Assembly (NCBI RefSeq): GCF_019565505.1
Contig: NZ_CP067378.1
Location: 868,001 to 932,000, forward strand
DNA: 64,000 bases
Direction of reading: 5' to 3'
From: Flavobacterium davisii
Lineage (GTDB): Bacteria; Bacteroidota; Bacteroidia; Flavobacteriales; Flavobacteriaceae
In this document: positions 23,069-55,011 of the stretch, piece by piece
How positions within the stretch are numbered: the first letter of the stretch is position 1
How the letters are laid out: the number at the start of each line of letters is the position of its first letter
Notes under the pieces: model-generated
Seen by the model: only the letters and a program-made list of their open reading frames with translations
What the model was told of the DNA's origin: nothing
The model's database searches: none
Translations under genes and position numbers: made by a program

Positions 23069-23087
23069 TTTAATAAATCTAAATAAA
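23069..23087. promoter_or_regulatory. Second, imperfect iron-box-like palindrome
   Basis: TTTAATAA-ATC-TAAATAAA: right arm perfect, left arm 6 of 8, placed immediately before the ATG at 23089. Its position between the predicted transcription start and the start codon matches the perfect copy at 27767-27785. Confidence 0.5.
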
Positions 23088-23088
23088 T

Positions 23089-25193
23089 ATGAATAAGTCT
23101 ATTTTTATTATTCTATTAACCACGATGTCTATACATCTATACGGACAAAAAAAGAGAATCAAAAGAGATTCTATTAATAGTTTAAAAGAAATTTCGGTAT
23201 CTGGAACTGCAAACAAATTTGCCTCTAATAAGGTTTCAAGTAGTTTAAGATTGAAAACAGAAATTGCTAAAATCCCTCAAAATATTCAAATCGTAACAAA
23301 TGAACTCTTAAAAAGTCAAAACATTACCACGATGATGGAAAATGTAACACGTAACATAAGCGGAGCTCAAATGAACGAACATTTTGGTAATTACGCTAAT
23401 ATCAACATGAGAGGATTTAAACTTCCTTCATTTAGAAATGGTATGAACATAGATATCGGATATGGTCCGTTGGCAACCGACTTATCAATGGTAGAAAACA
23501 TTGAATTTGTAAAAGGACCATCTGGATTTATGACTTCAGCAGGAGCTCCAAGTGGTATTTATAATGTAGTAACTAAAAAGCCAACTAAAAGATCAATCAA
23601 TGAAATAGGTTTTTCAGGTGGAAGTTTTAATTTTTACAGAGGAAATTTAGATTCTGGCGGAGCATTAACCGAAAATGGCAAACTACAATATCGTTTTAAT
23701 GCTATGTATCAATTTTCAGAAACTAATAGGCAATTTGAAAACAATTCAAGATACAGTATTGTTCCTTCTCTTAAATATGAATTTAATGATAATACGTCCT
23801 TGACAACAGAATTCACTTATCAAAAAGCAAAACAAATGTTAAGTGCATCATACGTATTTGCTCCCGTAGAAAAGGGATTAGGTAGCTTAGACAGGGACAT
23901 TTCTCATATAGATCAAAACTACCCTAGCTCTGATATAGAAGAAGTTAATTTATTTGTAGATTTTAACCATAACTTTAGTAGTAAATGGTCTATCAATACT
24001 CAATATATGATTATGCAATATAACCAATTGGGATATACAAATTGGGTTTATGGCATACATCCTTCAGGATATACTCAAAGAATGCTTAATAATTTTGATA
24101 CAAAAGCATTAAATGAATTAGCCGTGTATATATAAATGGGGAAATATCTTTTTTAGGCACAACTCATAAATTATTAACAGGTATTGATTATAAAAAACTC
24201 AACAGTAAATACGACTGGTCCCACACCGCTACTTATGATGTAATTCCTTTCAATCTTTTCCAACCTGTTTATGGCAAAGCAGTCTATCCTGTATTTAACA
24301 GAGAGTCGGGATTAACAAATATTGGTAGTGGAACTGAATATACTTCTATCTATGCACAAGATGAAATATGGTTTCTAAAGGATCGTCTTAGAGTAACTCT
24401 GGCAGGACGTTATTTTAATGGAAAAACCAATGATGATTATAAAAATAGTGTTACCATAAAAAGAATAAGTCCAAGGGTCGGAATAAGTTTTGATATTACT
24501 AAAAACTTTAGCATATATTCCCAATATGACAATTCAATTATACCTAATTACGGTACAAATAAAGAAGGCAAATTATTTGATCCAGAATATGCTAATAATA
24601 TTGAAACAGGATTAAAAAAATCTTTTTTAAGAGACAAATTAAAAACAACATTATCTGTTTATCAAATTACAAAAAGAATGTATTAGTAGCTGACCCTAAT
24701 GATATTCTTAACAAATTACAATTGGGTAAAGTACGATCAGAAGGGGTAGAATTTGACATTCAAGGTCAATTATCACCTGAGTTAAATATTGTTTTAAATT
24801 ATGCCTTCACAGAAGTAAAAACAATTGAAGACATAAATCCATTAAATATTGGTAAAAGAATTGAAGGCCATTCTAAACATACAACCAATGGTTGGATTAA
24901 CTACAATTTTAAAGAGGATTCTTTTTTAAAAGGTTTTGGAACTATGTTAGGATATCAATATTTGATAGACCGTTCTACATCTAATTGGGGAGTAGACAAC
25001 AAAACTATATTACCTGATTATTTAAGATTAGATGCTGGCATTAATTGGAGATATAAAGGATTAAATTTAGCATTAAATGTAAATAATTTATTAAATAAAT
25101 ATCTTTATTCTGGAGGAATAGCTGGAACTGTTGCTTACTGGCAAAGTGAACCCGGGTAGAAACTGGAGAACTATGCTAACCTATAAATTTTAA
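23089..25193 (+). CDS. TonB-dependent siderophore receptor (three frameshifts)
   Basis: About 701 residues after correction at about 24131 (one base missing), 24671-24675 (one A missing) and 25151-25156 (one extra base in CCCGGG, where Pro-Gly codons CCNGG are expected). Signal peptide MNKSIFIILLTTMSIHLYGQ; then a TonB-box-like EISVSG; plug domain with NIQIVTNELLKSQ, IPQ, INMRGFKLPS and VEFVKGPSG-type strand; and a barrel ending in NWRTMLTYKF. It belongs to the FhuA/FecA-like class of ferric siderophore receptors. Two putative iron boxes precede it and a PepSY gene follows, consistent with uptake of the hydroxamate made by the operon at 27788-38188. Confidence 0.92.
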
Positions 25194-25251: not shown

Positions 25252-26373
25252 ATGAAAATAAAAGACATTAAACAAAAAGCGCGAAAAATACATCTTTGGC
25301 TGGGGTTAACCTCAGGTCTCATTGTTTTCATAGTAGCCATTACAGGTGCTCTATATACATTTAAAGAAGAAATTCAAACATGGAATCAAGAACATCCTGT
25401 AATTAAAACACAAAACAAACCACTGCTAGTACCTACCGTACTAAAAAATATAGCTAAAAAAAAATTTCCTAATAAAGAATTACATGCTATAAAATATAAT
25501 GGAAATGATAAAGCGGTTGAAATCATATTCTATAAAAACGCTCCTAACTATCATATTACCTTATATTTAAATCCTTATAGCGGTAAAATCATTAAAATAA
25601 GTGATCTTAATACTGGTTTTTTCCATTTCATATTTGAAGGTCACATGTATTTATGGTTGCCACATTCTATTGGTCAAATTGTAGTTGCAACAGCCACGTT
25701 AGTATTCTTATTTATGATTATCACAGGCCTTGTACTTTGGTTACCTAAAAGAAGTAAAGAAATAAAAAAAAGGATATGGTTTCAATGGAAAGAAGGAATA
25801 AAATGGAAAAGAAAAAATTTTGATTTACACAATATAATAGGTCTCTATACTTCTCTATTTGCCTTAATTTTTATTATTACAGGATTAGTTTGGGGATTTC
25901 CTTTGCTTGGCTATTTGTACTACAAAGCAGTTGGAGGAGAAAAATCAATGATTTATCAAGAACCTTTATCTTCTTATAAAAAGATTAAGACTAAAAACAA
26001 TTTGTTTCCTATAGACAACGCTTGGTTCATTATGAAATCAGAGTATCCAAAAGCTAAATCAATTGAAATTCATCCTCCAACAAATGACAGTACTTCTATA
26101 GCTTGTAATTCAAATCCAGACGACTATACTCTTTGGAAAACAGATTATCGCTATTTTGATCAGTATACTCTGGAAGAAAAAAAAGTTGACCATTTATGGA
26201 GTCAATTTAAAGATGCTGATAATGCAGATAAACTCCTACGTATGAATTATGATATACATACAGGTGCTATTGCTGGATTAGCAGGGAAAATTTTTGCTTT
26301 TTTAATAAGTCTTTTAATAGCATCATTACCTATTACTGGTATATTAATTTGGTGGGGACGTAAAAACAAATAA
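25252..26373 (+). CDS. PepSY-associated transmembrane protein (siderophore-iron reductase-like)
   Basis: 373 residues with about four membrane segments (residues 16-40, 135-160, 195-225 and 340-365). The first is preceded by ARKIHLWLGLTSGLIVFIVAITGALYTFKEE, an opening typical of PepSY_TM proteins; conserved His residues in HLWLG, FHFIFEGHMYLWLPHSIG and DLHNIIG could ligate haem. Proteins of this type next to TonB receptors are thought to reduce or release iron from ferric siderophores in the inner membrane. It begins 58 bases after the receptor stop; co-transcription is likely. Confidence 0.85.
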   Translation: MKIKDIKQKARKIHLWLGLTSGLIVFIVAITGALYTFKEEIQTWNQEHPVIKTQNKPLLVPTVLKNIAKKKFPNKELHAIKYNGNDKAVEIIFYKNAPNYHITLYLNPYSGKIIKISDLNTGFFHFIFEGHMYLWLPHSIGQIVVATATLVFLFMIITGLVLWLPKRSKEIKKRIWFQWKEGIKWKRKNFDLHNIIGLYTSLFALIFIITGLVWGFPLLGYLYYKAVGGEKSMIYQEPLSSYKKIKTKNNLFPIDNAWFIMKSEYPKAKSIEIHPPTNDSTSIACNSNPDDYTLWKTDYRYFDQYTLEEKKVDHLWSQFKDADNADKLLRMNYDIHTGAIAGLAGKIFAFLISLLIASLPITGILIWWGRKNK

Positions 26374-26375: not shown

Positions 26376-26723
26376 ATGTGTTGCAACTATTCAATCGTTA
26401 ACAAAACAAACAATGGTATGCTTATCTTTTTAAGAGGTTGCCAAAAATATCAACTAACTTTTAACAATTTAAACTTTAGCATGTCTACTGAAGAATTAAA
26501 TGCTTTTTATAAATATTTAAGAAGAATGAACCCCGTATATTGGGAAAAAGAATATGAATATTCCGTGTACGAAAAAAAGATTCCTATTCCAACACTTCAA
26601 GATAATTTTATTATTATGATCAATAGAGTAGAATTATTTGAATTACAAATTTTAACAAAACCGAATAAAACTCAAATTTTTAAAATAGTTGAAAATCAAA
26701 TTTTATCTATCAATTGGAATTAA
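26376..26723 (+). CDS. Small cytosolic protein, DUF6686-like
   Basis: 115 residues, 2 bases after the PepSY gene. It opens MCCNYSIVNKTNNGMLIFL and contains NNLNFSMSTEELNAFYKYL and KKIPIPTLQDNF, a pattern I associate with small Bacteroidota proteins that occur next to iron-uptake genes. No signal peptide. The vicinal Cys at residues 2-3 could ligate metal. Function unknown. Confidence 0.7.
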   Translation: MCCNYSIVNKTNNGMLIFLRGCQKYQLTFNNLNFSMSTEELNAFYKYLRRMNPVYWEKEYEYSVYEKKIPIPTLQDNFIIMINRVELFELQILTKPNKTQIFKIVENQILSINWN

Positions 26724-26758: not shown

Positions 26759-27373
26759 TTGAAAACAACCGCTATACTAGATTCTCCAACACTATTCAGA
26801 AAGGCATTGAATTCTTTTATGCTCAAATTATTAATTAAATCTAAAAATTATGAACTAGATACTTTTTATCAACTAGAAAACTTATTACAAAAAACAACAA
26901 TAAACTACCTTTTTTTTGATCCTACTAATTTTAATGAAGATTTACTGAATCAAATTATTAATCTAAAAAAAGAAAATAAAATCCTAAAACTCATTATCAT
27001 AACATCTAACGAAACTTATATTAGAAATAATTTAGGACTAGAGTCCAAGATTCTAACCTTTATTGATTCTATTATTAGTAAAGATTGTTCTGAATCTCAA
27101 ATCATTGAATTATTTCATTATATTGACAAAAATGAATTCTTTTTCCCTTCAAAAAGTATTTTCAAACAAATTGATTTCAATTTAACGAAACAAGAACGTT
27201 GCATTTTAAAAATGCTTACGGAAGGTAAGAGTAATGAACAAATTTCAAATGACCTTTGTATCAGTATTCATACTTTTCGCACACATAGAAAAAATATCAT
27301 GAAGAAAGTAGGCGTTAACACCACTACTGATCTAATTTTATATAGCCTAAAAAACAATATTACAAATAACTAA
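26759..27373 (+). CDS. LuxR-type transcription regulator with degenerate receiver
   Basis: 204 residues from a TTG start at 26759. The N-terminal half resembles a receiver fold (strand-helix pattern, with LIIITSNE near residue 80) but lacks the standard acidic phosphorylation pocket: the position after the third strand is FFDPTN. The C-terminal half is a LuxR/GerE HTH (LTKQERCILKMLTEGKSNEQISNDLCISIHTFRTHRKNIMKKVGV). No sensor kinase is adjacent. It lies between the receptor operon and the siderophore operon and could control either. The start is not well fixed. Confidence 0.8.
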   Translation: MKTTAILDSPTLFRKALNSFMLKLLIKSKNYELDTFYQLENLLQKTTINYLFFDPTNFNEDLLNQIINLKKENKILKLIIITSNETYIRNNLGLESKILTFIDSIISKDCSESQIIELFHYIDKNEFFFPSKSIFKQIDFNLTKQERCILKMLTEGKSNEQISNDLCISIHTFRTHRKNIMKKVGVNTTTDLILYSLKNNITNN

Positions 27374-27787: not shown

Positions 27788-29325
27788 ATGAGCGAAGTGG
27801 TTTCAACTATCAAAACTAAACCTAAAGAAGAAAATAAACACTTGTTAAACAATGACATACATATATTTTCTGATAAAAAAAAAGAACTTAAGCCTTTACA
27901 AAAAAAGTATGAAAAGGGCTATAAAACAAATTATTAAGAATAATGAAAAAGAACAACTCCTTATACAGGAAAAAGCATTTCGTCATTACATCATTTAATA
28001 AGTCAAATAGATCTATATGATAACGAAAATGGTTTACCTTTAAAAGAGGTATTAAACGAAATTCAAAAAATATACCTTGATGACTGTATTCTTTTTCATC
28101 ATCCAAAATATGTTGCACATCTAAACTGTCCGATCCTTACTCCTACCCTTGTAGCTGAAGCCTTCATTTCTTCTTTAAATTCTTCTATGGATACTTGGGA
28201 TCAAAGTACAGGAGGTACTTACATTGAATTAAAACTAATTGAATGGACGCTTCAACTATTAAATTATCCTAAAAATGGGGAAGGTATTTTTACAAGTGGA
28301 GGTACTCAATCCAATTTAATGGGCCTTTTATTAGCTAGAGATCATTATATCAAAACAAGATATAATATAAATCCTGTTATGGAAGGTTTACCAGCAGAAG
28401 CCTCAAAATTTAAGGTACTTTGCTCTGAAGTAAGTCATTTTAGTTTAAAAAGAATCTTAGTTTATTAGGATTAGGCCAAAATGCTGTAATTCAAGTTCCT
28501 GTTGATAAAAATTTTAAAATGAATATCAACGAACTCAAAAACAAAATAGCTCAATTAAAAGCTAATGGTGATATTCCTATAGCCATTGTTGGAACAGCAG
28601 GCACCACTGATTTTGGCTCTATAGATCCATTAGTAGAAATAGCTGCTATAGCCAAAGAAAACGATATTTGGTTTCATGTGGATGCAGCTTATGGAGGTGG
28701 TTTACTAATAAGTGATATTCATAAAAACAAATTAAAAGGAATTGAATTTTCTGATTCTGTTACGATAGATTATCATAAAACCTTTTATCAACCAGTGAGT
28801 TCTAGTGGTTTTTTTATGCGAGACAAATCATTTGTTGATTATATAAAATACCATGCTGACTATCTAAATTCTAAAGAACAAGAAGATGAAGGTATTCCCA
28901 ATATGGTAAAAAAATCAATCCAAACAACCAGACGATTTGATGCCCTTAAACTATGGTTTACTCTTCGTTGTATAGGGGTAAAAGGATTAAGTTCTTACTT
29001 AGAAACTTCTATCGAAAATGCGCTTTATACAGCTCATATATTAAAAAACAGAAATGATTTTGAAATCATTCATCAACCCGAAATTAGCGCAATTGTTTTT
29101 AGATATACTCCTTTTGAAGACAAATACAATTCTTATTGTAATCTAAACTCTTATATAAGAAAAGCCATTTTTAATGAAGGTAAGGCTATCATAACAAGCA
29201 CAAAAGTAAACGAAAAGGTTTTCTTAAAATTCACGCTTTTAAATCCTTTAACAACTACAAATGACATTGATGAAATAATTGATTTAATCATCTATCACGG
29301 TCAACAATATTCAATTAAAAATTAA
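27788..29325 (+). CDS. PLP-dependent group II decarboxylase, DesA/BibA-like lysine decarboxylase (three frameshifts)
   Basis: About 512 residues after removing one A from the run at 27875-27883 and adding one base at 27978-27980 and one A at 28447-28451. The PLP-enzyme motifs are present: GGTQSNLMGLLLARD, HVDAAYGGGL (the Asp that holds the pyridine nitrogen) and DYHKTFYQPVSS, with the Schiff-base Lys. It belongs to the aromatic/diaminobutyrate decarboxylase family. With the hydroxylase and NIS synthetases downstream, it should make cadaverine from lysine, as DesA does in the desferrioxamine pathway. Diaminobutyrate or another basic amino acid is also possible. First gene of the operon. Confidence 0.85.
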
Positions 29326-29331
29326 AACTTT

Positions 29332-30656
29332 ATGGAAAATAATAAGATATATGACTTCATTGCAATTGGCGTAGGTCCATTTAATCTTGGATTAGCTTGT
29401 TTAACTAATCCTATTAAAGAATTAAATGGTTTGTTTTTTGATAAGAATGACACATTTGATTGGCATCCGGTATGTTATTACAGGACACTACTTTACAAAT
29501 TCCTTTTCTAGCTGATTTAGTTACACTAGCTGACCCTACAAGCTCTTTTAGTTTTTTAAACTATATTAAAGAAAAAGGAAAAATTTATTCTTTCTACATT
29601 CGTGAAAATTTCTTACTACTACGTAATGAATACAATCAATACTGCCAATGGGCTATAAGTAAACTCTCTAATGTTCATTTTGGCAAAGAGGTTACAACAA
29701 TAGATTATAATGAACAAGAAAAGATTTATTTAGTTACCGTACAAGATACAAAAAGTAAAAAAGTAAATGTTTACGCTTGTCGCAAACTTGTTTTAGGTAC
29801 AGGAACGACTCCTTATATTCCTAAATCATGTAATTCACTCAAAAACAAGGCCATTCACTCTTCAGAATACTTAACTAATAAAGAACAACTTCAATCCAAA
29901 AAATCTATAACTGTTTTAGGAAGCGGTCAGAGCGCAGCAGAAGTTTTTAATGACCTATTGCAGGAAATAGACATTCATGGCTATCAACTTAACTGGATTA
30001 CACGTTCTCCTCGTTTTTTCCCGATGGATTACAGTAAATTAACGCTTGAAATGACCTCTCCTGAGTATGTTGATTATTTTTATAATTTACCAGAAGCCAA
30101 ACGAGATCATTTAATTCATAATCAAAAAGAATTATACAAAGGAATCAACAAAGATTTAATAGGTAGCATTTTTGATACTATATATTACAAAAAAGTCCTT
30201 CATCCTATTGATGTAAATTTAAGAACAAATGCCGCTTGCATTAATTCAACATATAATGAAATTACTCAAAATTTTGAATTAGAACTACATCACGTTGAAC
30301 AAGACGAACACTTTAAACATACTACTGAGGCTTTAGTACTAGCAACTGGATATTCTAGCACAATTCCTTCTTTTATCCAAGACATTAACCACCGAATTAA
30401 CTGGGATAACAAAGGGCGTTATGCAACGAATCGCAACTATACAATTGATATAGAAAGTTCTGAAATTTTTGTTCAAAATGCAGAGCTACACACACATGGT
30501 TTTGTAACTCCTGACTTAGGAATGGCTTGTTATAGAAACTCTTATATCATTAAAGAAATGGTAGGTAAAGAAATTTATCCTATTGAAAAACAAATTGCTT
30601 TCCAACAATTTGGTATTACCGAAACGGAAAAACAAAAATCAAACCTAAAAGCATAA
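29332..30656 (+). CDS. Flavin-dependent diamine/lysine N-hydroxylase, DesB/IucD-like (one frameshift at CCNGG)
   Basis: True start ATG at 29332 (MENNKIYDFIAIGVGPFNLG), giving 441 residues after one base is restored between 29468 and 29469, where CATCC|GGT stands for the conserved FDWHPGMLL. The FAD motif GVGPFNLGLA (residues 14-23), NADPH motif VLGSGQSAAEVF and the C-terminal LATGYSS motif define the SidA/IucD/PvdA N-hydroxylase family. It would hydroxylate cadaverine (or lysine) for hydroxamate formation. It starts 6 bases after the decarboxylase and overlaps the next gene by 1 base. Confidence 0.92.
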
Positions 30657-31740
30657 TGGGATTCACAAACAATAGAATTGCTGCAATAGATTTTACTAGA
30701 GGTATAAGTGTTTTCTTTTTAATTATTGTGCATACCATGCTCATATACGGAACACTCGAAACTCAAACAGAAACAACGATAGGTCAAATTATTATTTGGC
30801 TAGGACGTGGAGCTGCTATGTACCTTATTGCTATGGGAATATCATTTACATTTTCCAGAAGACAATCCTTTTATACCATCATTAAAAGAGCCTTCTATCT
30901 ATTATTTATAGGATATTCATTAAATTTTGTAAAATTCATAATCCCCGAATTTATATTCGGTGGATTACCTTATCGTTTTTTAAATGCTTATCATTTAAAA
31001 ACACAATCCCTTGAAACTTCACTATTTTTTTTAGGCCTTGGAGACATCTTGCAATTGGCAGGAATAAGTTTGTTATTAATAGCTTTTATAAATCAAATAT
31101 CAAATAATAAATGGCTATACTTTCTTTTAGGACTCTCTATTATGATCCTATCTAAGGAGCTAAGTGGGTTTAAAACAAACATCATAGGATTAGAATATAT
31201 ATGCCATTTATTCTTTAGTAATCAGTACAATGTTTATTTTCCCGTATTCCCTTGGAGTGCCTTTATTTTTATGGGGGTCTTTTTGGGTAAACAATTAAAA
31301 GAAATCAATAATGATACTCAAATCTTCTTTAAGAACTTGGCATTACAGAGTTTGGGACTAATTGTACTAGGTCTTTCACTTGTTCTTACAAATTATAAAT
31401 ATCATTTTGGTGATTATTATCATTTAGGTCCTGGAGGAAGTATTATTCTACTAGGAATTATGATGCTCTGCTTTTGGATAGCAAATCAATTAGTTAAACT
31501 CTTTAATCCTAACTCCCCTTTTTTAATATTATAATCTATCTAAGTAAAAATACTACTAGTATTTATTTTATTCAATGGACCTTAATTAACTGGGGTATGT
31601 ATGTTTTCGGATTTTGGAGCTTGCATCAGTGGAGTGTTTTAGCATTAATAGTTTTGTTTACAGTACTAACCCTTATAACAAATATTCTATATAGAAAATT
31701 AAAATTACTAAGAATTATTTCATTTGAAAATAATCTATAA
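30656..31740 (+). CDS. Polytopic membrane protein, DUF1624/HGSNAT-like acyltransferase (one frameshift)
   Basis: About 361 residues with roughly ten membrane segments after adding one T in 31519-31524. The N-terminal motif RIAAIDFTRGISVFFLIIVH is typical of DUF1624 (heparan-glucosaminide N-acetyltransferase-like) and related DUF418 proteins. These move acyl groups across a membrane in some members. It overlaps the hydroxylase stop by one base and ends 11 bases before the fused synthetase gene, so it is a true member of the siderophore operon. It could acylate the siderophore or help export it; neither is proven. Confidence 0.7.
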
Positions 31741-31751
31741 ACACTTAAAAA

Positions 31752-34169
31752 ATGAAAAAAAACAGCACCAATATAGCATCAGAAATTGTCTTTTCTACCT
31801 TAATAAAAGGATTAGGAACCATCGATTTTATACCTCTCAATATCCAAACTCATATTCCTATTATCCACGATTGGGTAAACAGGGAGTATGCGCAATATTG
31901 GGGCATGATAGGTAAAAGTTGTAATGAAATAAAAAACGAATATGAAAAAATCATACAACATTCTGAGGTTTTTTTAGGACAAGTAAATGGCGAAATTTCC
32001 TTTCTTTTAGAAAAATACAATCCAAAAAATGATCCCATTTCTGATTATTATAAAGTAAAAGATCATGATTGCGGTATTCATGTAATTGTAGCTCCTACAA
32101 ACAATCCTATTCATCAATTTACTTGGAATATCTTTACCTCAATAATGAAATTTGTTTTTTCAGATCTTACTATTGAAAGAATCGTAGTAGAACCCGATAT
32201 TCGAAACGAAAAAATGTTTAAAATATGCCATCGAATTGGTTTCAAAGATGACAAAATAGTAGAATTACCTCACAAAACGGCTCGTTTATCTTTTTGTACA
32301 AGAAGACAATTTATTAAAAAAATAGATTCAGAAAACACTATTACATTAAATTTATCCGAAGTATTTTCGCAAATAAAAAATCCTGAAATAGCCACTAGCC
32401 ATATAAACGAAGATACTTGGGGACTGGCTAATAAATTATTGGTAAAAAAAGCTATTAGTGAGTTTTCCCACGAAAGCATCTTTACTCCTACTCTTATTAG
32501 TAAAGAAAACGAAGAAGACATTTATCAAATCATTAGTGACAATAGTGAAGTATCATATTCCTTTAAAGCAAAAAAGCTAGCACTTAACCACTGGTTAATT
32601 AATGAAAATTCTATCATTAAAAACTACAATCCCGAAGAAAAAATAGACGCTGTTTTATTTTTCAATGAGTACAAGAACACCATAGGGATATCCGATGAAT
32701 TATTTCCTTCCTATATAGAAGAAATAATTAGTACGTTACAAAGCAGTATGTCTAAATTAAAGAAAGATAATTTAAATTCACATCAACTAGTATACGCTGA
32801 TTTCCAAACCATTGAACAATCTATGAATGAAGGTCACCCCGGTTTTGTTGCTAATAATGGAAGAATAGGATTCAATAGTACCGATTATAAGACTTATACT
32901 CCTGAAACAGGAAATCCTTTTCAACTCGTATGGTTAGCAGGTAAAAAAGACCGAACAGTTTATGCAGGCACACAAGAACTCGATTATGACACTCTAATTC
33001 GTCAGGAATTGGGAGATGAAACCATTGAAATATTCAACATCATGATCAAAGAACAAGGAAAAAATCCTTCTGATTATTTCTTTATGCCAACCCATCCTTG
33101 GCAATGGTTTAATAAACTTGCTATTATTTTTTCTCCCGAAATAGCTCAAGGAAATCTAATCTGTTTAGGTTATGGAACAGACTATCATCAAGCTCAACAA
33201 TCTATTCGAACTCTTTTTAATATAAGCCATCCCCAAAAATTATATACAAAAACCTCTTTATCTATTTTAAACATGGGATTCATGCGAGGACTTCCTGTGT
33301 ATTATTTAGGTAGTGCCCCTGAAATGGCAAAATGGCTAGAAGATTTACTAAAAAAAGACCATTATCTACAACAAGTTCGATTTGGTATGCTTGGCGAAGT
33401 AGCATCTATTAGTTACATTAATCCTTATTTTGAGAGCTATGGAAAACATAATCCATACAACAAAATGATTGCCTCACTATGGCGTGAAAGCCCTGTAAAG
33501 TACCTTCAAAAAGGAGAACAATTAATGACTATGGCGGCATTATTACACATAGATAAAGAAGGAAATGCTTTTTTAACCGAAATGATTAAAGCATCAAAAA
33601 TGACCACCGACAAATGGTTAAAATCTTATTTCTCTATTTATCTCACCCCTCTTCTTCATTGTTTTTATGAATATGATTTAGTGTTTATGCCACATGGCGA
33701 AAACTTAATTTTAGGATTAAAAGATCACGTTCCTGTACGTTCATTTATGAAAGATATTACAGAAGAAGCCGTTATTCTGAATCCAGAAATTAAGCTCCCT
33801 ACAAATTTAGAAAGAATGTATGCAGAAGTACCAGAAGACGTAAAACTACTTTCGATCTTTATCGATGTTTTTGATGGTTTCTTCCGTTTTATGTCAGCCA
33901 TTTTAGTATCTCAAATACAGTACGACGAAAATCGCTTTTGGGAGTTAGTAGCCGAAAGTATTCAAGAATACCAACAAACACAACCTCACTTAGAAACAAA
34001 ATTTGAAAAATATGATTTATTTACTGCTGATTTTGAATTGTCTTGTTTAAACAGATTACAACTAAACAATAATAAAACTATGATAGATCTAGATGATCCC
34101 GTTGCTTTATTACAATTCCAAGGTAAAATTTCTAACCCTATTGCTCCGTACAAAAAAGTAATAGCTTAA
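31752..34169 (+). CDS. Fused GNAT acyltransferase - IucA/IucC NIS synthetase (BibC-like)
   Basis: 805 residues in one intact frame. Residues 10-190 form an AlcB/DesC-like siderophore acyltransferase (DWVNREYAQYWGM, CGIHVIVAP, VVEPDIRNEK). Residues 210-800 form an NIS synthetase with the ATP-binding EGHPGFVANNGRIGF, HPWQW, KTSLSILNMGFMRG and the metal-binding MPHGENLIL. In the bisucaberin pathway BibC has the same fusion: the first domain succinylates N-hydroxycadaverine and the second condenses the product. It starts 12 bases after the membrane-protein gene. Predicted product: a hydroxamate oligomer of the bisucaberin/desferrioxamine kind. Confidence 0.93.
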   Translation: MKKNSTNIASEIVFSTLIKGLGTIDFIPLNIQTHIPIIHDWVNREYAQYWGMIGKSCNEIKNEYEKIIQHSEVFLGQVNGEISFLLEKYNPKNDPISDYYKVKDHDCGIHVIVAPTNNPIHQFTWNIFTSIMKFVFSDLTIERIVVEPDIRNEKMFKICHRIGFKDDKIVELPHKTARLSFCTRRQFIKKIDSENTITLNLSEVFSQIKNPEIATSHINEDTWGLANKLLVKKAISEFSHESIFTPTLISKENEEDIYQIISDNSEVSYSFKAKKLALNHWLINENSIIKNYNPEEKIDAVLFFNEYKNTIGISDELFPSYIEEIISTLQSSMSKLKKDNLNSHQLVYADFQTIEQSMNEGHPGFVANNGRIGFNSTDYKTYTPETGNPFQLVWLAGKKDRTVYAGTQELDYDTLIRQELGDETIEIFNIMIKEQGKNPSDYFFMPTHPWQWFNKLAIIFSPEIAQGNLICLGYGTDYHQAQQSIRTLFNISHPQKLYTKTSLSILNMGFMRGLPVYYLGSAPEMAKWLEDLLKKDHYLQQVRFGMLGEVASISYINPYFESYGKHNPYNKMIASLWRESPVKYLQKGEQLMTMAALLHIDKEGNAFLTEMIKASKMTTDKWLKSYFSIYLTPLLHCFYEYDLVFMPHGENLILGLKDHVPVRSFMKDITEEAVILNPEIKLPTNLERMYAEVPEDVKLLSIFIDVFDGFFRFMSAILVSQIQYDENRFWELVAESIQEYQQTQPHLETKFEKYDLFTADFELSCLNRLQLNNNKTMIDLDDPVALLQFQGKISNPIAPYKKVIA

Positions 34170-34181
34170 ATCTAAGAAAGT

Positions 34182-34778
34182 ATGAACAGTACACAGCAAT
34201 CCAATCAAAATATAGAAAACCAAATCTGTTTTAGTAAAAAAATAGAGTCTATAGGTTTTTTTGAACTGAGAAAATTTAACCTAACCCAAGATTTACCTAT
34301 AATTTATCAATGGGTTCAAAAAGAATATGCTATCTATTGGGGTATGATGGGTTTACAATACAATGAAGTAAAAACCATTTATCAAAAACTAGTAGAAAAC
34401 ACTCATATCTATATTGGGTTATTTCAAGGAAAAATAGCTTTTTTATTAGAATGCTATGATCCTCAAGAAGATATCATTAAAGAACATTATGAAGTAAAAA
34501 AAGGAGATATAGGCATGCATATTTTGGTTGCCCCTCCAGACAAAAAAATAAATGGTTTTACTTGGCAAATTTTCAAATTTATATTAGACTTTATTTTTAG
34601 CAATTCAACCATTAATCGTGTAGTGGTAGAACCTGATGCAAAAAATGAAAAAATACATATTTTAAACGAAAAAGCAGGGTTTGTTTTTCAAAAATTCATT
34701 GACTTACCACATAAAAAAGCACGATTAGAATTTTGCACAAGACAGCAGTACTACCATGCCATTATGAACAGTAACTAA
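34182..34778 (+). CDS. Stand-alone siderophore acyltransferase (GNAT, AlcB/DesC-like)
   Basis: 198 residues, related to the N-terminal domain of the preceding fused protein: QWVQKEYAIYWGMMG, GMHILVAPP, RVVVEPDAKNEK and LPHKKARLEFCTRQQ match in order. It acylates an N-hydroxylated amine with an acyl-CoA. It begins 12 bases after the fused gene. A second copy suggests either a different acyl donor or redundancy. The gene is followed by a 206-base gap with a large hairpin before the second synthetase. Confidence 0.9.
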   Translation: MNSTQQSNQNIENQICFSKKIESIGFFELRKFNLTQDLPIIYQWVQKEYAIYWGMMGLQYNEVKTIYQKLVENTHIYIGLFQGKIAFLLECYDPQEDIIKEHYEVKKGDIGMHILVAPPDKKINGFTWQIFKFILDFIFSNSTINRVVVEPDAKNEKIHILNEKAGFVFQKFIDLPHKKARLEFCTRQQYYHAIMNSN

Positions 34779-34838
34779 CATTCGATTTTCTAAAATAAGG
34801 CTGTCTGATAAACCGTAAATGAACGTCTAGTTTAGCCG

Positions 34839-34895
34839 TTCGACGATTGGAGAAATTACATTATTAATATTATGTAATTTCTTCCAGTAGTCGAA
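34839..34895. repeat. Long imperfect hairpin inside the siderophore operon
   Basis: The arms TTCGAC...GAAATTACAT and ATGTAATTTC...GTCGAA pair for over 20 bases (core perfect arms 34852-34861 and 34872-34881) around a 10-base AT loop. No T-tract follows on the plus strand, so it is not a standard terminator. It may be a small inverted-repeat insertion, an mRNA processing site or a partial attenuator between two groups of siderophore genes. Confidence 0.6.
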
Positions 34896-34984
34896 ATAAC
34901 CAGATCCCCCTTCTTTTCGTCCCCTTTCAATACTAACCTTCCATTTTTAACTTTTTAATACAGCTCTTTGTAAAATACTATTTT

Positions 34985-36795
34985 ATGGATACAAAAACAT
35001 CTACTGCTCCTATTCTTGCAGAAAATATAAAACATCTAAAATTAGCCCATTGGGAAAAAGCTAACAGACTTCTTACCCGAAAAGCTATTTCAGAATTTTC
35101 ACATGAAACACTTATTAGCCCAATTTATAATGAAAAAATAAATAAATACCAACTAAATACAATAGATAAACAGTACACGTATACCTTTCCTGCGCATATA
35201 AAAGCTCTTAATAACTGGCATATTCCTTATGAAAGTATTATAAAAGAAGATACTAACGGTAATACAATTCCTCTATGTCTCATTAGCTTTATTCTTGAAT
35301 TTAAAGACCTCCTTGAAATTCCAACTGATTTACTTCCTACCTATCTAGAAGAAATTAATGCGACTCTTTATAGCACTACTTATAAAATTTCAAAGGAAAA
35401 ATTCAGCGCAAATGAACTTCCTCATACAGATTATCAAACTATTGAACACAGTGTTACCGAAGGACATCCTTGCTTTTTAGCAAATAGCGGAAAAAATGGT
35501 TTTAGTAGTCTTGATTTTATTTTATTTTCACCAGAAGCCAATAGTCCTATTCAATTATTATGGGTGGCAGGTCATAAAAGTAGTGCTCAATTTTCTTGTA
35601 TTGATTCTCTCAGTTATGACTTATTAATCAAAACGGAATTAGATAACGAAACTCAAATTATATTTCAAAAAGTACTAGAAACCGAAAAAGTAGATCCTAA
35701 CGAATACCTTTGGTTTCCTGTACATCCATGGCAATGGGATAATAAACTGACCTTGATTTTTACTCATGATATTGCCCAAAAAAAATTAATTCCTTTAGGA
35801 TTTGCCCCTGACAAACACTCGGCTCAACAATCTATACGTACTTTTTATAATCTTTCTAATACAAGCAAACATTTTACAAAAACGGCTTTATCTGTAATTA
35901 ACATGGGATTTATGCGAGGTCTTTCTCCTTATTACATGGAAAGTACTCCCGTTATTACTACTTGGTTAGAAAATCTTGTACAAACAGATCCTTTTTACAA
36001 TCCAAAGGTTTTACCGTTTTAGGAGAAGTAGCCACTTTAGGATATCGTAATATTTTATGGGAAAATCTTGGCAAAACCATTCCACATAACAAAATGTTAG
36101 CTACGCTTTGGAGAGAAAGCCCTGCTACAAAACTTCAAAAAGATGAAGATTGTTTTACCATGGCTGCATTACTTCATTTAGACTATCAAGGCCAACCTTT
36201 TATTAAACATCTTATTGAATCCTCTAAAATCAATTCAAAACAATGGATTGATCAATATCTACAAGCCTATTTAATTCCTCTCATTCACTGTTTTTATACC
36301 CATGAACTAGTATTTATGCCACATGGAGAAAATCTTATTCTAGTAATAAAAGACCATATTATTGAACGTGTTTTAATAAAAGACATTACAGAAGAAATCA
36401 TGCTCTTTAATCATACAATCTCCTTACCAGAAAAAGCAGAAAGAATACGTATGAATTTACCAGACAATTTAAAAATATTGAGTATTCAAAATGACATTTT
36501 CCAACACTTCTTTCGCTTTCTATCGGCTATTTTAGATCAATATAATATTTTAAGTGAGCATGATTTTTGGAAAAGTGTTGGAACTTCTATTGCTGAATAT
36601 CAGCTACAAAATCCTCAACTTAAGGAATCTTTTATACAACATGACATATTTAGCAAAACATTTGACTCTTGTTGTTTAAATCGTTTACAACTTAAAAACA
36701 ATAAGCAAATGTTAGATCTAGCTGATCCAGCTTCTAGTTTACAATTTGTAGGAACATTAGAAAATCCCATTCATCAATATAAACCTGTATGGTAA
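34985..36795 (+). CDS. Second IucA/IucC-family NIS synthetase (one frameshift)
   Basis: 603 residues after adding one A in 36004-36006. Motifs: EGHPCFLANSGKNGFSS, HPWQWDN, KTALSVINMGFMRG, GEVATLG, LWRESPA and MPHGENLIL, in the same order as in the fused synthetase, to which it is clearly related but divergent. It condenses a carboxylate with an amine or hydroxylamine using ATP. Two synthetases in one operon suggest stepwise assembly, for example chain extension by one and cyclisation or citrate attachment by the other; that division is inference. Its end overlaps the MATE gene by 7 bases. Confidence 0.92.
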
Positions 36796-38188
36796 AAACT
36801 ATTAAAGCAAAATTAAAATTTCTTCAGCATCATGATATTGTTGATTTTAATTCTATTGGACTTAAAGAAGGAATCTGGTTATTAGCTATCCCTATGATTT
36901 TAGAGTTAATCCTTGAATCAGTCTTTTCTTTGGTAGATTTGTACTTCGTAGGGCATTTGCCAGATAGTCATTTAGCCATTCAAATTATAGGTTTTACAGA
37001 ATCTATCAACACTATAATATATTCAATAGCGGTAGGTTTTAGCGTAGCTGTTACTGCTCTAATTTCTATTTCTATTGGTGAAAAAAAATAGAAAAAACAG
37101 GAAAAATTATCATGCAAGCATTAATCATCTCTTGTTTACTTTCTTTAATAATTAGTATACTAGGTTATTTTTATGCTATTGATATTTTTGCTTCTTTAAA
37201 TGTTTCTCAAAAGGCTATTGCTTATGGTATAAGTTATCCTAAAATTATCTTCAGCAATAGTATTTTTATACTCTTATTGTTTTTAATTAATGGAATATTT
37301 CGAGGTATAGGTAATCCTTTACTCGCTATGAAAAGTCTTTGGATAGCAAATGGTTTTAATCTCATATTATGCCCTTTACTCATAAATGGCTGGGGAATTT
37401 TTCCTGCTATGGGGATTGAGGGAGCAGCTTGGGCAACAGTCAGCGGTAGAGCAATAGGCGTTTTTTATCAATTATATTCTATTTTCAGAATCCGAAAATC
37501 TATAGGTTTTCAAAAGAACGGTATACAATTTCACTACCCTATCATAAGATCTATTACTTCTATTGCTATACCCGGTATATTACAATATGTATTAGCCTCT
37601 TTAAGTTGGATTTATTTAGCTCAATTAATTGCTAAAAGTGGTGGCGAATATGGCTCAGCAGGTTTTCAGATAGCGGTTAGAGTTATGATGTTTTTTATAC
37701 TCCCTATTTGGGGTTTAAGTAATGCTGTTGCCACTCTTACAGGTCAATATTTAGGAGCCCAACATAGTATAAGAGTAAAAGTGTTAACTAAAATTGTACT
37801 TAAATATACTATTATACTTTGCTTAGGAATTACACTAATCAATATTTTTTTTGCAGAAGGTATTAGCTTATTTTTCACTAATGACATACAAACTATAGCA
37901 CAAGCAAAGGAATCTATGAAAATTATCAGTTTAGGTTATATCTCCTATGGAATTTCAATGATTTTAAATAATTTATTTAATGGTGCAGGTAATACAAAAA
38001 TCCCTACAATCGTTAATTTTATTGGATTTTGGATTTTTCAGATACCGCTTGCGTATTATCTAATTGATATACAAAAAAGTAATTATTTTTATGTTATTGG
38101 ATTGATTCCTATTACCGAAACAATACTTTGCTTGCTTTATAGTGCCTTGTGGAAAAATTTAGCAAATAGCATAACAACACAGGATTGA
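36789..38188 (+). CDS. MATE-family efflux transporter (one frameshift), probable siderophore exporter
   Basis: 466 residues after adding one A in 37081-37087. About twelve membrane segments; the N-terminal half carries LLAIPMILELILESVFSLVDLYFVG, and the loop region with GIFRGIGNPLLAMK is typical of MATE/DinF transporters. Start ATG at 36789 lies inside the last codons of the NIS synthetase gene, evidence of translational coupling. By position it should export the siderophore or its intermediates across the inner membrane. Last gene of the operon. Confidence 0.9.
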
Positions 38189-40588: not shown

Positions 40589-40886
40589 GTATGAAGGTTA
40601 ACGGTTTAAAACTCTACTTTAATAAGTCTTAACCTATTTTTGTTCAAATATAAGGTATCAGTTTTTCATTCGAAATAGGAATCGTTAAATTATATTTGAA
40701 AAATAGGGCTTGCTTTTTTATAAAAAAATCTAAAAAAAATAAAAACTTGATCTATGATTTCTTCTTAATCGCAAATTATGTGGTAGAAATTTATTCCAAA
40801 CAAAGAAGAACTCTAAATCTAAGAAGCGTACTTTTTTATTAAATTAGGCTGTCTTAAAAGTTCACAATTTTGTCATTTATTGCTTC

Positions 40887-41096
40887 TTCACTATTCCCTC
40901 TTCACTATTCCCTCTTCACTATTCACTATTCCCTCTTCACTATTCCCTCTTCACTATTCCCTCTTCACTATTCCCTCTTCACTATTCCCTCTTCACTATT
41001 GCCTCTCCACTATTACCTCTTCACTATTACCTCTTCACTATTACCTCTTCACTATTACCTCTTCACTATTACCTCTTCACTATTACCTCTTCACTA
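40887..41096. repeat. 14-bp tandem repeat array (about 15 copies)
   Basis: Units of CTATTCCCTCTTCA in the left part and CTATTACCTCTTCA in the right part, with one unit carrying an internal CACTATT duplication. The two-block variant order suggests expansion by slippage from each end. No gene. A related TCACTA tract lies in the ribosomal operon at 8203-8240. Likely length-variable between strains. Confidence 0.9.
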
Positions 41097-41100
41097 ATGT

Positions 41101-41490
41101 CTGTGTTTTTTAATCTCTAACGCATAATCAGTATTACATTTTAAAAACTATGTGTTACGCTCTTTATGGGGTTGGGATGACAAGGGCGTCAAATTATTTA
41201 TTCTTCAACAATCCCCGCTAGTTTGTCACTCCGACAAAGGAAGGTGTCGCATTATTTATATGATGGGCCCTCGTTCCTATTCTATGAATAAAAAAAGCCT
41301 CCACTATTTTATTTTCTTCGATTCCTTATCAATTAAAATGAGATTGATTTTCTACACAATAACACAAATATCAAAATAATAATAAATAAAAAGTACAAAA
41401 ATTGATAAGAATATTTAAATTTGACAAAACAACCAAATGTTTAACAAAATATTTTTAAACATTGAAAACTAACTAAAAAACAGATTTATA
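41101..41490. other. Non-coding upstream region of the effector array
   Basis: About 390 bases with no convincing gene. It holds GGGATGACAAGG at 41171 and TTTGTCACTCCGACAAAGGAAGG near 41221 in a broken form, fragments of the kind of CATTCCGACGAAGGA intergenic repeat common in Bacteroidota. The last 90 bases are AT-rich and should contain the promoter of the first effector gene, but no clear TTTG/TAnnTTTG pair was found. Confidence 0.4.
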
Positions 41491-44066
41491 ATGAAAAAAG
41501 GGATATCTGTAATATCAGGCGTAACCTCGCCCACAGTAGGCGAAAAAATGACCTACCACATATCCGAATGGTACCCCAATACCCCCTTATCCGAAAGAGA
41601 AAAAGCCAACGTTACTTGGGAACTATTCAAAAAAAGAAGCGATGGAAGATTTACCACCACCCATGTTAAGAAAAAAGGAGACAGCAGTTTTACCTTTGGC
41701 GAATCTTCGGCAGGAGAAACCTATCGATTAGAAGCCTATTTATACCAACCCGAAGGAGGCGGATTAATCATAACCCCCAAAGCCAGCAGAATCCCCAAAA
41801 TATGCAAAGTAGACCTAACCTATGTAGACGATAGTAAAGGAAGTGTTTTTAGTTTTACAGAAAAACTACGAGCCAAAGCGCATTGTGTAAATATGTTTAA
41901 CAAAGAAATTTTATTTACCTTATGGGAAGACGACGCAAAAGGCAGCGGACACAATGCCTCTAACAAACTCATTGATACAAAGAAGGCAAAAGTAGATCTA
42001 TATGGTAATGTTGTAGTAGACTTTATGCTAACCAAAGCCTTGATGAAGAAAGCCATGCAAGGAGAAGCAGATATACGAGAACTAGAGTTTTATGTAACAG
42101 TAGAATATTACAGAAATAAAAAGCACACAACAGCAAACGTAGATATACAAAATCCATTACCTACAGAAAATACCCCTCCTTCTCAGTCTACGGGAATAAA
42201 AAAAGCCAAAGGTTCTCCAGCTGAAGAAAAACCGAAAAGCAAGAAAGAGGAAAGTGGCTTATTAACCCCTATTTCCGAAACCTTAGGTGAAATATGGGAT
42301 TGGGTAGAAACTCAAGGAACTGCCCTAAGAGACAAACCCCACACCATTGAAATCCCGGAGGGAAAAAGCCCCGCTATTGTGGGGAAAACGAAGAGTGAGA
42401 AGGCTTCCACTACAGGTACAAGCTGTGGTGAAAGATATTGCCTTAAAAAAGGAGATAAAAGTGAACTCATACGAGAAATTAATATTCGTTTAGCGGGTTT
42501 TGGTGGAAATGTCCCGACTGATGAATTTACAGACCGCACCGAAAAAATGATTAAACAGTTTCAACGGGATTATATGAAAGTTCCTGAGACGGGTAAGGTT
42601 TGTGGTAATGTATTGTTAGCGATAGATCAATTTCAAGTTAAATATAATTTTGATTTTTCTTCATTAAAGTGTAAATGTGGTAAATGCTCTGGTTTTGGAG
42701 ATAATAGTAATAAAGAAAAATATTTAAAAGGTAATTTAGAAGCTCATCATCGATACGAATATCCCGGTATTCATAGATCATTATTATGGTCATTGAGATC
42801 TGTACTTTTTTATTTGGAGAAAGAGGGTAAATATACTTTCGATAAAATTAGTTCAGGTTATAGATGTAGAAATCATGAAGAATATCTGAAAAAACCTACA
42901 ACTAATCATATGGGCAAAGCATTAGATTTACATTTTAATAAAAATGGAGCTAGGACTAGAATTGTTTCTGATATTGAAAAAATAAGGAGCGATATTTTTA
43001 ATAAATATTTGGGAGCAAAATGGGATTGGAAAAATGAAAAAGATATTTTCTACTTAGAATCTACATCAGTAGGAGCAACTACATGGATTCATTACGATGT
43101 TAGAGAATTTACTCCAACAAAATATCTTTTAGATAAATATTTTGCAAAAACGCTCAATGATTTTAATGGAAAAGGAATTGTTCAGTTAGCTAAAGAGCTT
43201 GGTTTTCAAAATACTTGTAATTGTATCGCAACATTGGAAACAGCAACTCCTAAAAATGAAACTAAAAAGGAAGGATGCTTTTGTGGTAGAGACTTTACTA
43301 CCGAAGACCTTGTTTCACTGGGTATAAGTAAAAAAATGCAGATAAATTTTTAGAATCAATTAATTCAACTTTGCAAAATTATAATATTAACAGTTGTAAA
43401 AGAAAACTGCATTTCTTAGCACAAGTTCGCCATGAATCAGGAGAATTTGTTTATCAAGAAGAAATTGCTTCAGGTAGCGCTTATGAAGGAAGAGAAGATT
43501 TAGGAAATACAGAAAAAGGTGATGGTATAAAATTCAAAGGAAGAGGTTTAATACAAATAACAGGTAGAAAGAATTATACTAATTATGGTAGTTATAAAGG
43601 TGAAAATTTTACTACTACTCCAAACAATAAGAAATTAGGAGAATTACCATATTGTGTTGATTCAGCTGGTTGGTATTGGAGTAAAAATCTTTCTATCGAT
43701 TTGAATGACTATGCTGATAAAGATGATATTATTTATATCACATATAGAATTAATGGTGGCTATAATGGGTATTTAGACGATAGAAAACCTAAATTAATTG
43801 AGATGATAAAATCAATCAATTGTGAAAAGACTAAATTTGAAAATTATGATTCATATTCTATTAAAAAAAGTAAATCATGGGATGCATACGACGCAGTTTA
43901 TAAATACGCAAAATTAAATACATCTGAATCCAAAGAATCCTATAAAAGATTTTTAGAATTAACGGATGATTATCTTACATGGAATTCAATGAAAGGTAAT
44001 GTAAATAAGAAAAAAAGAGAAAATATGGAAAACAAAAGAAAAATTGCCAATGAAAAAGTTAAGTAA
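41491..44066 (+). CDS. Cassette 1: multidomain peptidoglycan hydrolase effector (M15 peptidase + GH19), one frameshift
   Basis: 858 residues after adding one A in 43330-43336. No signal peptide. Residues 1-100 are a beta-rich N-terminal domain (MTYHISEWYPNTPLS...). Residues 143-301 are the block shared with the other cassettes (LWEDDAKGSGHNASNK to IPEGKSPAIVGKTK). Then: PG-binding domain at about 310-375 (KKGDKSELIREINIRL...MIKQFQRDY); M15-like zinc peptidase at about 395-550 (SSGYRCRNHEEY, HMGKALDLHF, WIHYDVREF); Cys motif CFCGRDFTTEDL; GH19-like lysozyme/chitinase at about 625-790 (AQVRHESGEF, FKGRGLIQITGRKNY). So it joins a peptide-cutting and a sugar-cutting enzyme. Delivered by an unknown, probably contact-dependent, route. 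An exported small protein overlaps its 3' end. Confidence 0.82.
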
Positions 44067-44476
44067 AAAATTAGTGTTTAGTTCAATAATTTTAGTAATC
44101 TTCTTGTCTTTGACAAGTTTTAAAGATGAAAAACGAATTGAAAAAAATGGTTTACTATTATTTCTAAAACCATTAAGCAAGAAATTATAGGAACATATAT
44201 TTTGAAATCTTGTGAAAATTCAAGATTTCAAATAAAAATTGAAAAAAATCAGGGATTTATTCATTTTTAATTTACGATAAAAATAAAATAATTTCAAAAG
44301 GAAAAGTAAAGAAACAAACAATTGAAGGTTCAACTTATTTGACATTTGGAAAAATAGAAGGACTATATGAAGACGATAAAATTCAAATACAGAATTATGG
44401 AAATTCTATGAACGAATATATTCATTTTACTCAGTGTCAAGAAAAATATTTATCTTTTGTAAAATCACAACAATGA
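44050..44476 (+). CDS. Small exported protein, candidate immunity protein for cassette 1 (two frameshifts)
   Basis: Start ATG at 44050, overlapping the effector 3' end by 17 bases. About 142 residues after adding one A in 44141-44147 and one T in 44255-44257. The N-terminus (MKKLSKKLVFSSIILVIFLS) is a signal peptide or anchor; the mature part is small and beta-rich (EIIGTYILKSCENSRFQI, KGKVKKQTIEGSTYLTFG), ending CQEKYLSFVKSQQ. I do not recognise the family. Overlap with a toxin-like gene and periplasmic targeting make an immunity role likely. Its TGA overlaps the next ATG. Confidence 0.6.
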
Positions 44477-45090
44477 AATTTCTAAAGCAAACTTTTAAAA
44501 CAATAACATTAATTTCTTTTATATTTTTATCAAATTGTAAAAAGAACGAAACAAATAATAATGAAGCTATAATACCTACGGCCGATACAGTTTCAATATT
44601 ACCATCAAAAATAGCTACTCAAAAAGATTCCATTGAAACACCAAATGAAAACAAAGAGTGTTTTAAAAAATCTGAATTAGAACTTCCGTACAATCAGAAA
44701 ATTGATGTAAGAAAAATTAATTACGAAACCTGTGAATGTAAAATAGAAGGTATTGATGAATTACTATGTGACAGTCCAAATTTACGTTATATAGCACTTC
44801 CAAATTTTGAAAATAAAAAAGTTATATTAATACCTATGGATTGTGGAGACTTTAACTATAGATTCTACATGGCTACAATTTTTGAAAACAAACTTCTTGA
44901 TAAGCTTTATGTCGAAGGAGAATGGTATGAACCCGGTGATGAAACTTATAAAGAATTGACCCATTTTTCAATTGATAAAAATTACAAAATCACCATAACT
45001 AAAAAAAATCTTGATAATGAGAAAATCACAGCAACAGAATTAACAAACTATAAAATTGATTCTAGCGGAATTTTTTTAAAATCAAAGTAG
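44473..45090 (+). CDS. Lipoprotein downstream of cassette 1, candidate immunity protein
   Basis: True start ATG at 44473 (an earlier in-frame Met at 44434 lies within the preceding gene). 205 residues with a lipoprotein signal ending FLSNC (Cys at about residue 22). The mature part has conserved Cys (CECKIEGIDELLC, MDCGDFNYRFY), a beta-rich second half and no recognisable domain. ATGA overlap with 44050-44476 shows translational coupling in one operon with the effector. Confidence 0.7.
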   Translation: MKFLKQTFKTITLISFIFLSNCKKNETNNNEAIIPTADTVSILPSKIATQKDSIETPNENKECFKKSELELPYNQKIDVRKINYETCECKIEGIDELLCDSPNLRYIALPNFENKKVILIPMDCGDFNYRFYMATIFENKLLDKLYVEGEWYEPGDETYKELTHFSIDKNYKITITKKNLDNEKITATELTNYKIDSSGIFLKSK

Positions 45091-45124
45091 GAATTTATTT
45101 TTAATTCAAACATTTATTAACTAA

Positions 45125-46045: not shown

Positions 46046-46278
46046 AATTTAAGTTAGTAAAAATAATTTTTACCACAGTTTTATTCCTTTTTCTATTTAG
46101 TTGTAAAGAAAACACACCAAACAATGAAAAAGATATAAATAAAAGTATTGTAAATGAAAGCATTACATCTAACAATTCTATCTTATCGAACGAAACAACC
46201 ACAAATTCTAATAAATCTTTTACTATAGATTGTGATTCTGGTTGTGCTATGATATATAACGAGGCATATCTGATATAA
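46042..46278 (+). pseudogene. Truncated lipoprotein gene (remnant)
   Basis: A frame reading IKFKLVKIIFTTVLFLFLFSCKEN... has a lipoprotein signal with no proper start (ATA where ATG would stand at 46042) and stops after about 78 residues at DSGCAMIYNEAYLI. The end resembles the DCGQLIYDI segment of the neighbouring paralog, after which the sequence jumps to a terminator hairpin and cassette 2. It looks like an immunity-type lipoprotein cut by recombination. Confidence 0.55.
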
Positions 46279-46281
46279 AAG

Positions 46282-46305
46282 AAGGGAAATGTTGCCATTT
46301 CCCTT
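46282..46305 (+). terminator. Hairpin at the cassette 1/cassette 2 boundary
   Basis: Perfect 10-base stem AAGGGAAATG/CATTTCCCTT with loop TTGC, right after the truncated lipoprotein gene. There is no long T-run, so efficiency is unclear. The right arm abuts the 46303 junction that is shared with cassette 4. Confidence 0.55.
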
Positions 46306-46410
46306 GCCTCACTTATATATAACCCAAAAAACAAGACAAGGATTTGTACAAAAAAAGGAAGAAATATTACAAAACAAAAATATGCAACAGTAAACGTAGA
46401 AATAAAAAAC

Positions 46411-48076: not shown

Positions 48077-48080
48077 TACT

Positions 48081-48782: not shown

Positions 48783-48783
48783 T

Positions 48784-49374: not shown

Positions 49375-49376
49375 TT

Positions 49377-49751: not shown

Positions 49752-49835
49752 TTTCATATAGCTTAATAATACGTTCCTTGACAAACTAAAAACTAAAAAG
49801 CAATAGGAGGAATATCTGAAATAAAGGCGGATAAA

Positions 49836-55008: not shown

Positions 55009-55011
55009 AAT

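Follow-up and report, generated by a model that had tools for sequence, protein, structure and literature searches.

The question posed by this locus is why a siderophore pathway should carry two acyltransferases and two synthetases, with one pair fused in a single protein and the other pair split between two genes. The locus is in a 64,000-nucleotide stretch of Flavobacterium davisii DNA (assembly GCF_019565505.1, contig NZ_CP067378.1, positions 868,001 to 932,000, forward strand), which we call the window. A first-pass annotation had assigned positions 27788-38188 of the window to an operon for a hydroxamate siderophore, containing two acyltransferase/synthetase pairs, and this is right. Domain matches bear out its gene order: decarboxylase (A), N-hydroxylase (B), fused acyltransferase and nonribosomal peptide synthetase-independent siderophore (NIS) synthetase (CD1, with parts C1 and D1), stand-alone acyltransferase (C2), second NIS synthetase (D2), and MATE transporter. 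The annotation omitted a membrane protein gene (E), between B and CD1, and frame breaks in five of the genes. From A to MATE, the genes are closely spaced; the only larger gap, of ~200 bases, is 5' of D2. Coordinates are in Table 1.

The cluster is related to bsb and tbs of Tenacibaculum

The cluster is almost certainly the columnaris-group version of the bisucaberin B-type cluster described as bsb and tbs. The bsb cluster of Tenacibaculum mesophilum, reported in 2018, has A, B, an MFS gene, CD1, C2, and D2 (PMC6164419). The same gene set is present in the window: decarboxylase and N-hydroxylase, then fused CD1, then a second, separate C and D. In bsb, the reported identities are 44% between C parts and 50% between D parts (PMC6164419). 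Across the related loci described below, mean within-locus identity is 43.4% for C1 and C2 (75 loci, including the window) and 50.6% for D1 and D2 (74 loci). The divergence of the two pairs, noted in the first-pass annotation, is therefore borne out.

The clusters differ in their exporter and in the position of E. In bsb, the MFS gene is between B and CD1, whereas the window has E in this place and a MATE gene 3' of D2. The window cluster gave no MFS match, and neither did the 21 Flavobacterium loci compared (L051-L071). The six reported open reading frames of bsb do not include E; in the Tenacibaculum loci compared here, E lies downstream. We treat the exporter gene as variable, and inessential to the cluster type. 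The tbs cluster of T. maritimum (MARIT_0169-0174), described in 2017, has duplicated and fused CD genes (PMC5561996), as the window does, but has an MFS exporter. Note that tbs was compared by its published description rather than its sequence. The fused-plus-split arrangement is already published, for bsb in 2018 and tbs in 2017.

A match to bibABC was proposed initially, but the closest known clusters, with an identical fused-plus-split arrangement, are bsb and tbs. The bib, dfo/des, and alc pathways have enzyme classes in common with the window, and DfoC is also a fused acyltransferase-synthetase. However, these pathways have one C and one D, and macrocyclic products (PMC6164419). The accompanying remark, that a single BibC would suffice for bisucaberin, agrees with the 2018 work, where the sufficiency of one C/D set was argued and partly tested (PMC6164419). 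In a published survey of 2,680 genomes, 167 bisucaberin B-like clusters were reported, and Flavobacterium was named as one of the genera where siderophore clusters of this kind are plentiful.

The closest named relatives of the window locus are in F. columnare and F. covae. DNA identity to F. covae CP067379.1 (L052) is 90.0% for the biosynthetic genes and 86.8% for the upstream genes. Identity to the biosynthetic genes of F. columnare NBRC 100251 (L051) is 84.5-86.9%. From these values, we place the window genome in the columnaris group, as its third member. In F. columnare MS-FC-4, a locus called sidL has 11 genes, spans ~14 kb, and provides for synthesis, export, and a receptor (PMC9618737). 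Growth of the sidL deletion strain was stopped by 50 µM of the iron chelator deferiprone, compared to 728 µM for the wild type (PMC9618737). From receptor to MATE, the window also has 11 genes, collinear with F. columnare, that match sidL in number and kind. Hence, we infer that the window locus corresponds to sidL.

Conservation of the fused pair

We compared the best 80 of 508 relatives identified by a scan of named genomes. Each locus spans at most ~23 kb. Since the query started from the window's own protein, and the best matches were kept, the sample leans to this cluster type. Two pairs are present in 76 of the 80 loci; 57 are fused plus split and, in 19, both pairs are fused. Three loci (L125, L126, and L128) have a single pair and L124 is cut by a contig end. 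Split and fused second pairs are interleaved on the synthetase tree. Of 56 split loci, 10 have C2 and D2 in the same frame, with a single stop codon between them. The 19 loci with tandem fused proteins (L073, L077, L082, L110, L115, L122, L130, and others) include examples from Glaciecola (L122) and Reichenbachiella (L110). The D1s of L122 and L110 group together, as do their D2s, which suggests transfer between phyla.

The pair statistics left out loci with broken or truncated genes (L052, L104, and L124), the single-pair loci, L050, and the broken D2 of the window. Pair order is reversed in L123 and L127, and was swapped by hand. Phylogenetic trees were built from 77 of 155 kept D domains (41 chosen sources) with three PDB enzymes, and from 77 of 159 C domains with two known enzymes. 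The D1 rows, 37 of 37, fall into a single clade, with support of 100 in the 80-row tree, apart from DesD, DfoC, AlcC, and the single-pair synthetases. Similarly, all 37 C1 rows form one clade, with support of 98 in the 79-row tree. The D2 rows form no supported clade in the D tree, whose root (L050, on a very long branch) is unreliable. Hence, we claim the D1 clade only, and not the order of duplication. The synthetase phylogeny suggested in the first-pass annotation, run here with DesD, DfoC, and AlcC, thus sets D1 apart but places D2 without support.

Comparison between loci also distinguishes the pairs. Of 2701 locus-to-locus comparisons, 2699 show greater similarity for D1 than for D2; for C1 over C2, the count is 2126 of 2775. 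With respect to F. columnare, the ratio of nonsynonymous to synonymous substitution rates (dN/dS) is 0.053 for CD1 and 0.049 for the D1 part. Among complete loci of the 80, no D1-clade module occurs by itself, and none of the three single-pair loci belongs to that clade. Taken together, this conservation, the single clade, and the absence of D1 where there is no second pair argue against D1 being dead. We conclude that D1 is probably a conserved enzyme, rather than a relic or spare copy.

D1 has fixed changes at positions where D2, DesD, DfoC, and AlcC agree. Several are close together, within D-domain residues 306-316 (P replacing S, L replacing M, A replacing T, and M replacing I). C1 has fixed changes at residues 156-160, where C2 and DfoC agree and, in 74 of 75 loci, the acyltransferase domain of DfoC is more similar to C2 than to C1. 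Judged by sequence, C1-D1 and C2/D2 look as two specialised pairs would; the speciality itself is not indicated. A predicted structure of CD1, with a mean predicted local distance difference test score (pLDDT) of 62.7, was not used.

E resembles a membrane-bound amine acetyltransferase

E is present in 74 of the 80 loci, and in 73 of the 76 with two pairs. It was not found in L074, L120, L124 (at a contig end), L126, L127, or L128, within the ~23 kb or less examined for each. In all 21 Flavobacterium loci (L051-L071), E is between B and CD1, and these loci have no MFS match. In 52 other loci, an MFS gene is 5' of CD1 and E is 3' of CD1 (in L125, E is 3' of the single pair). The gene arrangement of L123 differs from that of other E-bearing loci. 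A MATE gene scored above the 150-bit threshold in 13 of the 21 Flavobacterium loci, with a weaker match in L057. Separately, 18 of the 80 loci, within L072-L130, have a nitroreductase-like gene 3' of D2 and 5' of E, and none of L051-L071 do. Our guess is that this gene might bear on tenacibactins that end in hydroxamic acid.

Association of E with the fused pair extends to a wider sample. In 397 evenly sampled Flavobacteriaceae genomes, with at most five candidates scored in each, E orthologues (E <= 1e-20) occur in five, and these are the same five that have fused CD1. A further two genomes have no E, and their match to the fused query is to an unfused synthetase only.

HGSNAT (heparan-alpha-glucosaminide N-acetyltransferase) acetylates an amine using acetyl-CoA. 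The corresponding Pfam domain (PF07786) is found in all 21 copies of E examined. The AlphaFold model of F. columnare E, built with 21 sequences, has a mean pLDDT of 88.3. It matches human HGSNAT over ~300 residues with a VIA Z score of 20.0-23.4. The next best match is another acyltransferase, GWT1 (15.8-17.5), and other chains score 5.1 or less. Foldseek by itself ranked HGSNAT first, but with an E value no better than 2.7e-3. E and human HGSNAT are thus alike in fold and Pfam domain, but are 15% identical over ~300 residues. Given the amine acetylation by HGSNAT, E would fit the task of acylating the free amine on a linear siderophore, and we consider it a candidate amine acyltransferase of the HGSNAT family. 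No paper linking this family to siderophore clusters was found in a search of open-licence literature, which is a weak negative. The window genome encodes a second, weaker relative of E that is not part of a siderophore cluster (G000:C1:2628183-2629079, L142). It adjoins a gene for a 381-residue protein of unassigned function.

A possible division of labour

The reading that we favour gives each pair its own task. First, A would decarboxylate lysine, presumably generating cadaverine, and B would N-hydroxylate the resulting diamine. C2 would succinylate the hydroxylamine, with D2 then coupling units to produce a linear uncyclised dimer, as for BsbD2. C1 would form a hydroxamate with some other acyl group (acetyl or longer). 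D1 would couple the amine of this product to the dimer, at its free carboxylate, resulting in a linear trimer, similar to acyl-desferrioxamine B. The remaining free amine would be acylated by E. Finally, the MATE transporter would export the product, and the upstream TonB-dependent receptor would take it back in. As a whole, we favour this division of labour tentatively. With rather less assurance, we envisage a two-stage line for end-capped linear desferrioxamines; D2 would make the succinyl dimer, C1-D1 (always accompanied by a second pair) would add one acyl-hydroxamate unit that acts as a terminator instead of macrocyclisation, and E would N-acylate the other end.

The activity of D2, the siderophore role of the locus, and the acyl-desferrioxamines of T. 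maritimum have been shown by others, in relatives. Our assignments for C1, D1, E, and MATE, and for the siderophore that this organism makes, are inferred. In E. coli, BsbD2 alone generated linear bisucaberin B, at 16.1 mg/L (Fujita et al., PMC6164419). The reported products of T. maritimum are linear acyl-desferrioxamines, with N-hydroxy-N-acyl-cadaverine at one end and succinyl-cadaverine units. In one product family the terminal cadaverine is N-acetylated and, in the published account, bisucaberin B was not detected. Such molecules need transfer of a succinyl group and of another acyl group, two kinds of coupling, and terminal acetylation. C2, C1, D2, D1, and E would supply these steps. The two-stage line would also explain why acyl-desferrioxamines are made in T. 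maritimum, where bisucaberin B was expected.

Several points weigh against the favoured division of labour. The BsbD1 part gave nothing detectable in E. coli and, when co-expressed, lowered the yield of bisucaberin B (PMC6164419). Furthermore, bisucaberin B is reported to be the sole product of T. mesophilum (PMC6164419). Note that BsbD1 was assayed without its C1 domain and with the succinyl substrate only (PMC6164419). Since BsbD1 was cut from C1, and given only succinyl-hydroxamate, the two-stage line would explain this negative result. Overall similarity to the known enzymes hardly differs between D1 and D2 (of 74 loci, D2 is closer to DesD in 37, DfoC in 45, and AlcC in 19). Hence, neither is marked as the classical enzyme. 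D2 also has fixed changes of its own, for example at residues 360 and 555, and the two-pair loci L074, L120, and L127 lack E within the examined DNA. No structure for the F. columnare siderophore was found in the available parts of the literature examined. Lastly, five of the seven genes in 27788-38188 (A, B, E, D2, and MATE) are frame-broken in this assembly, each over at least two frames.

Alternative explanations

Rather than one pair handing over to the other, both could be active in parallel. Each would make its own chains (e.g. a dimer and a succinyl-only trimer), with E being transporter-like or accessory. Two complete pairs, with different fixed residues, are consistent with this. The same is true of the position of E in L051-L071, which is the slot of the MFS gene in other clusters. 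However, a D1-type module was not found alone, and MFS and E occur together in the 52 marine-type clusters. Moreover, the model of E matches the HGSNAT and GWT1 acyltransferases far above any transporter. We consider parallel action to be somewhat unlikely.

A simpler possibility is that bisucaberin B is the only product. In this situation, D2 would do all of the coupling, with D1 inactive or nearly so. The E. coli results for BsbD2 and BsbD1, and the exclusive product of T. mesophilum, are as this would predict. Conversely, D1 is the more conserved synthetase, is under strong purifying selection, and is kept in all 76 two-pair loci. The absence of both C1 and a non-succinyl substrate from the BsbD1 assay also blunts the negative result. 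Furthermore, T. maritimum has the same pairs and yielded the acyl-desferrioxamines described above. On balance, production of bisucaberin B alone seems unlikely.

It is also conceivable that the locus is undergoing decay in this strain, with nothing being made. From receptor to MATE, 6 of 11 genes are frame-broken (the receptor, A, B, E, D2, and MATE). By contrast, EF-G, and the three flanking window genes common to F. columnare, are whole; this small sample points away from sequencing error. However, all genes of the locus are whole in F. columnare NBRC 100251. Over the 11 genes, we counted 12 frame-changing differences. All are single-base, and six are within homopolymers that are four bases long or longer. 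One of the 12 is in a gene with a whole frame and is probably an alignment effect. In the remaining frames, dN/dS with respect to F. columnare is 0.03-0.14 (the misframed MATE row is excluded). Elsewhere in the same genome, GAPDH-like and MltG-like genes, named by eye with no family search, are also split, and genome completeness is 86.99%. On balance, sequencing error is likelier than decay, although this is not proven. We regard decay as quite improbable. In F. covae CP067379.1 (L052, 1135-16442) there are many frame breaks over the same locus, falling partly on different genes. Pseudogenes may therefore be overcounted in assemblies from the columnaris group.

A citrate-capped, aerobactin-like hydroxamate, the other product suggested initially alongside a mixed-acyl or longer hydroxamate (of which the linear form agrees with our favoured reading), is very improbable; while both synthetases have an IucA/IucC domain, they score 582-648 bits against DesD, DfoC, and AlcC compared to 211-233 bits against the aerobactin synthase IucC (D1 compared directly, and D2 via its F. 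columnare copy), which places them closer to the DesD/AlcC type than to IucC/AsbB, there is no IucA-type partner, all three PF04183 matches in the genome are within CD1 and D2, and the genes match a desferrioxamine-type cluster throughout.

Gene inventory and flanking DNA

The features of the locus are collected in Table 1. Further downstream, the window has a segment of ~15 kb (~40737-55879) that both F. columnare (L051) and F. covae (L052) lack between the same flanks. Either this was inserted here or it was lost from both relatives. A Pfam scan of seven proteins from the segment gave nothing above cut-off, and an eighth protein has an SH3_3 domain.

Table 1. Genes of the siderophore locus, with positions in the window
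Feature	Position	Strand	Basis
TonB-dependent siderophore receptor, in three frames here	23083..25159	+	Homologous to whole 703-aa F. columnare copy, in which TIGR01783 is above cut-off
PepSY-type membrane protein, whole	25252..26373	+	Named from inspection of the sequence; no NCBIfam match
Conserved 115-aa protein, function unassigned	26376..26723	+	Sequence comparison
LuxR-type helix-turn-helix regulator	26759..27373	+	F. columnare copy matches response-regulator models, below cut-offs
A, pyridoxal phosphate-dependent decarboxylase, frame-broken	27788..29325	+	PF00282 in both main pieces; whole in L051
B, lysine/ornithine-type N-hydroxylase (N-monooxygenase), frame-broken	29332..30656	+	PF13434, E 5.8e-105; whole in L051
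E, HGSNAT-fold membrane protein, frame-broken	30656..31737	+	HGSNAT_cat PF07786 above cut-off
CD1, fused GNAT acyltransferase and IucA/IucC-FhuF synthetase, 805 aa, whole	31752..34169	+	PF13523, PF04183, and PF06276
C1 acyltransferase part of CD1	~31752-32365	+	
D1 NIS synthetase part of CD1	~32382-34166	+	
C2, stand-alone GNAT acyltransferase, 198 aa, whole	34182..34778	+	PF13523
D2, second IucA/IucC-FhuF NIS synthetase, frame-broken	34985..36795	+	PF04183 and PF06276 over two frames; 606-aa whole frame in L051
MATE transporter, presumed exporter, frame-broken	36789..38188	+	PF01554; TIGR00797 above cut-off in F. columnare copy

Discussion

The 2018 work did not settle why these clusters keep two acyltransferase/synthetase pairs (PMC6164419). 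Comparison of loci makes the question directly testable. What is new here is the E gene, the exchange of exporter in Flavobacterium, and the evidence for a conserved, specialised fused pair. The fused module is conserved, is not seen alone, and is inherited together with a membrane acyltransferase-like gene. If our favoured reading is true, a DesD-type pathway would have been diverted from making rings to making a family of capped linear siderophores, in bacteria that include fish pathogens.

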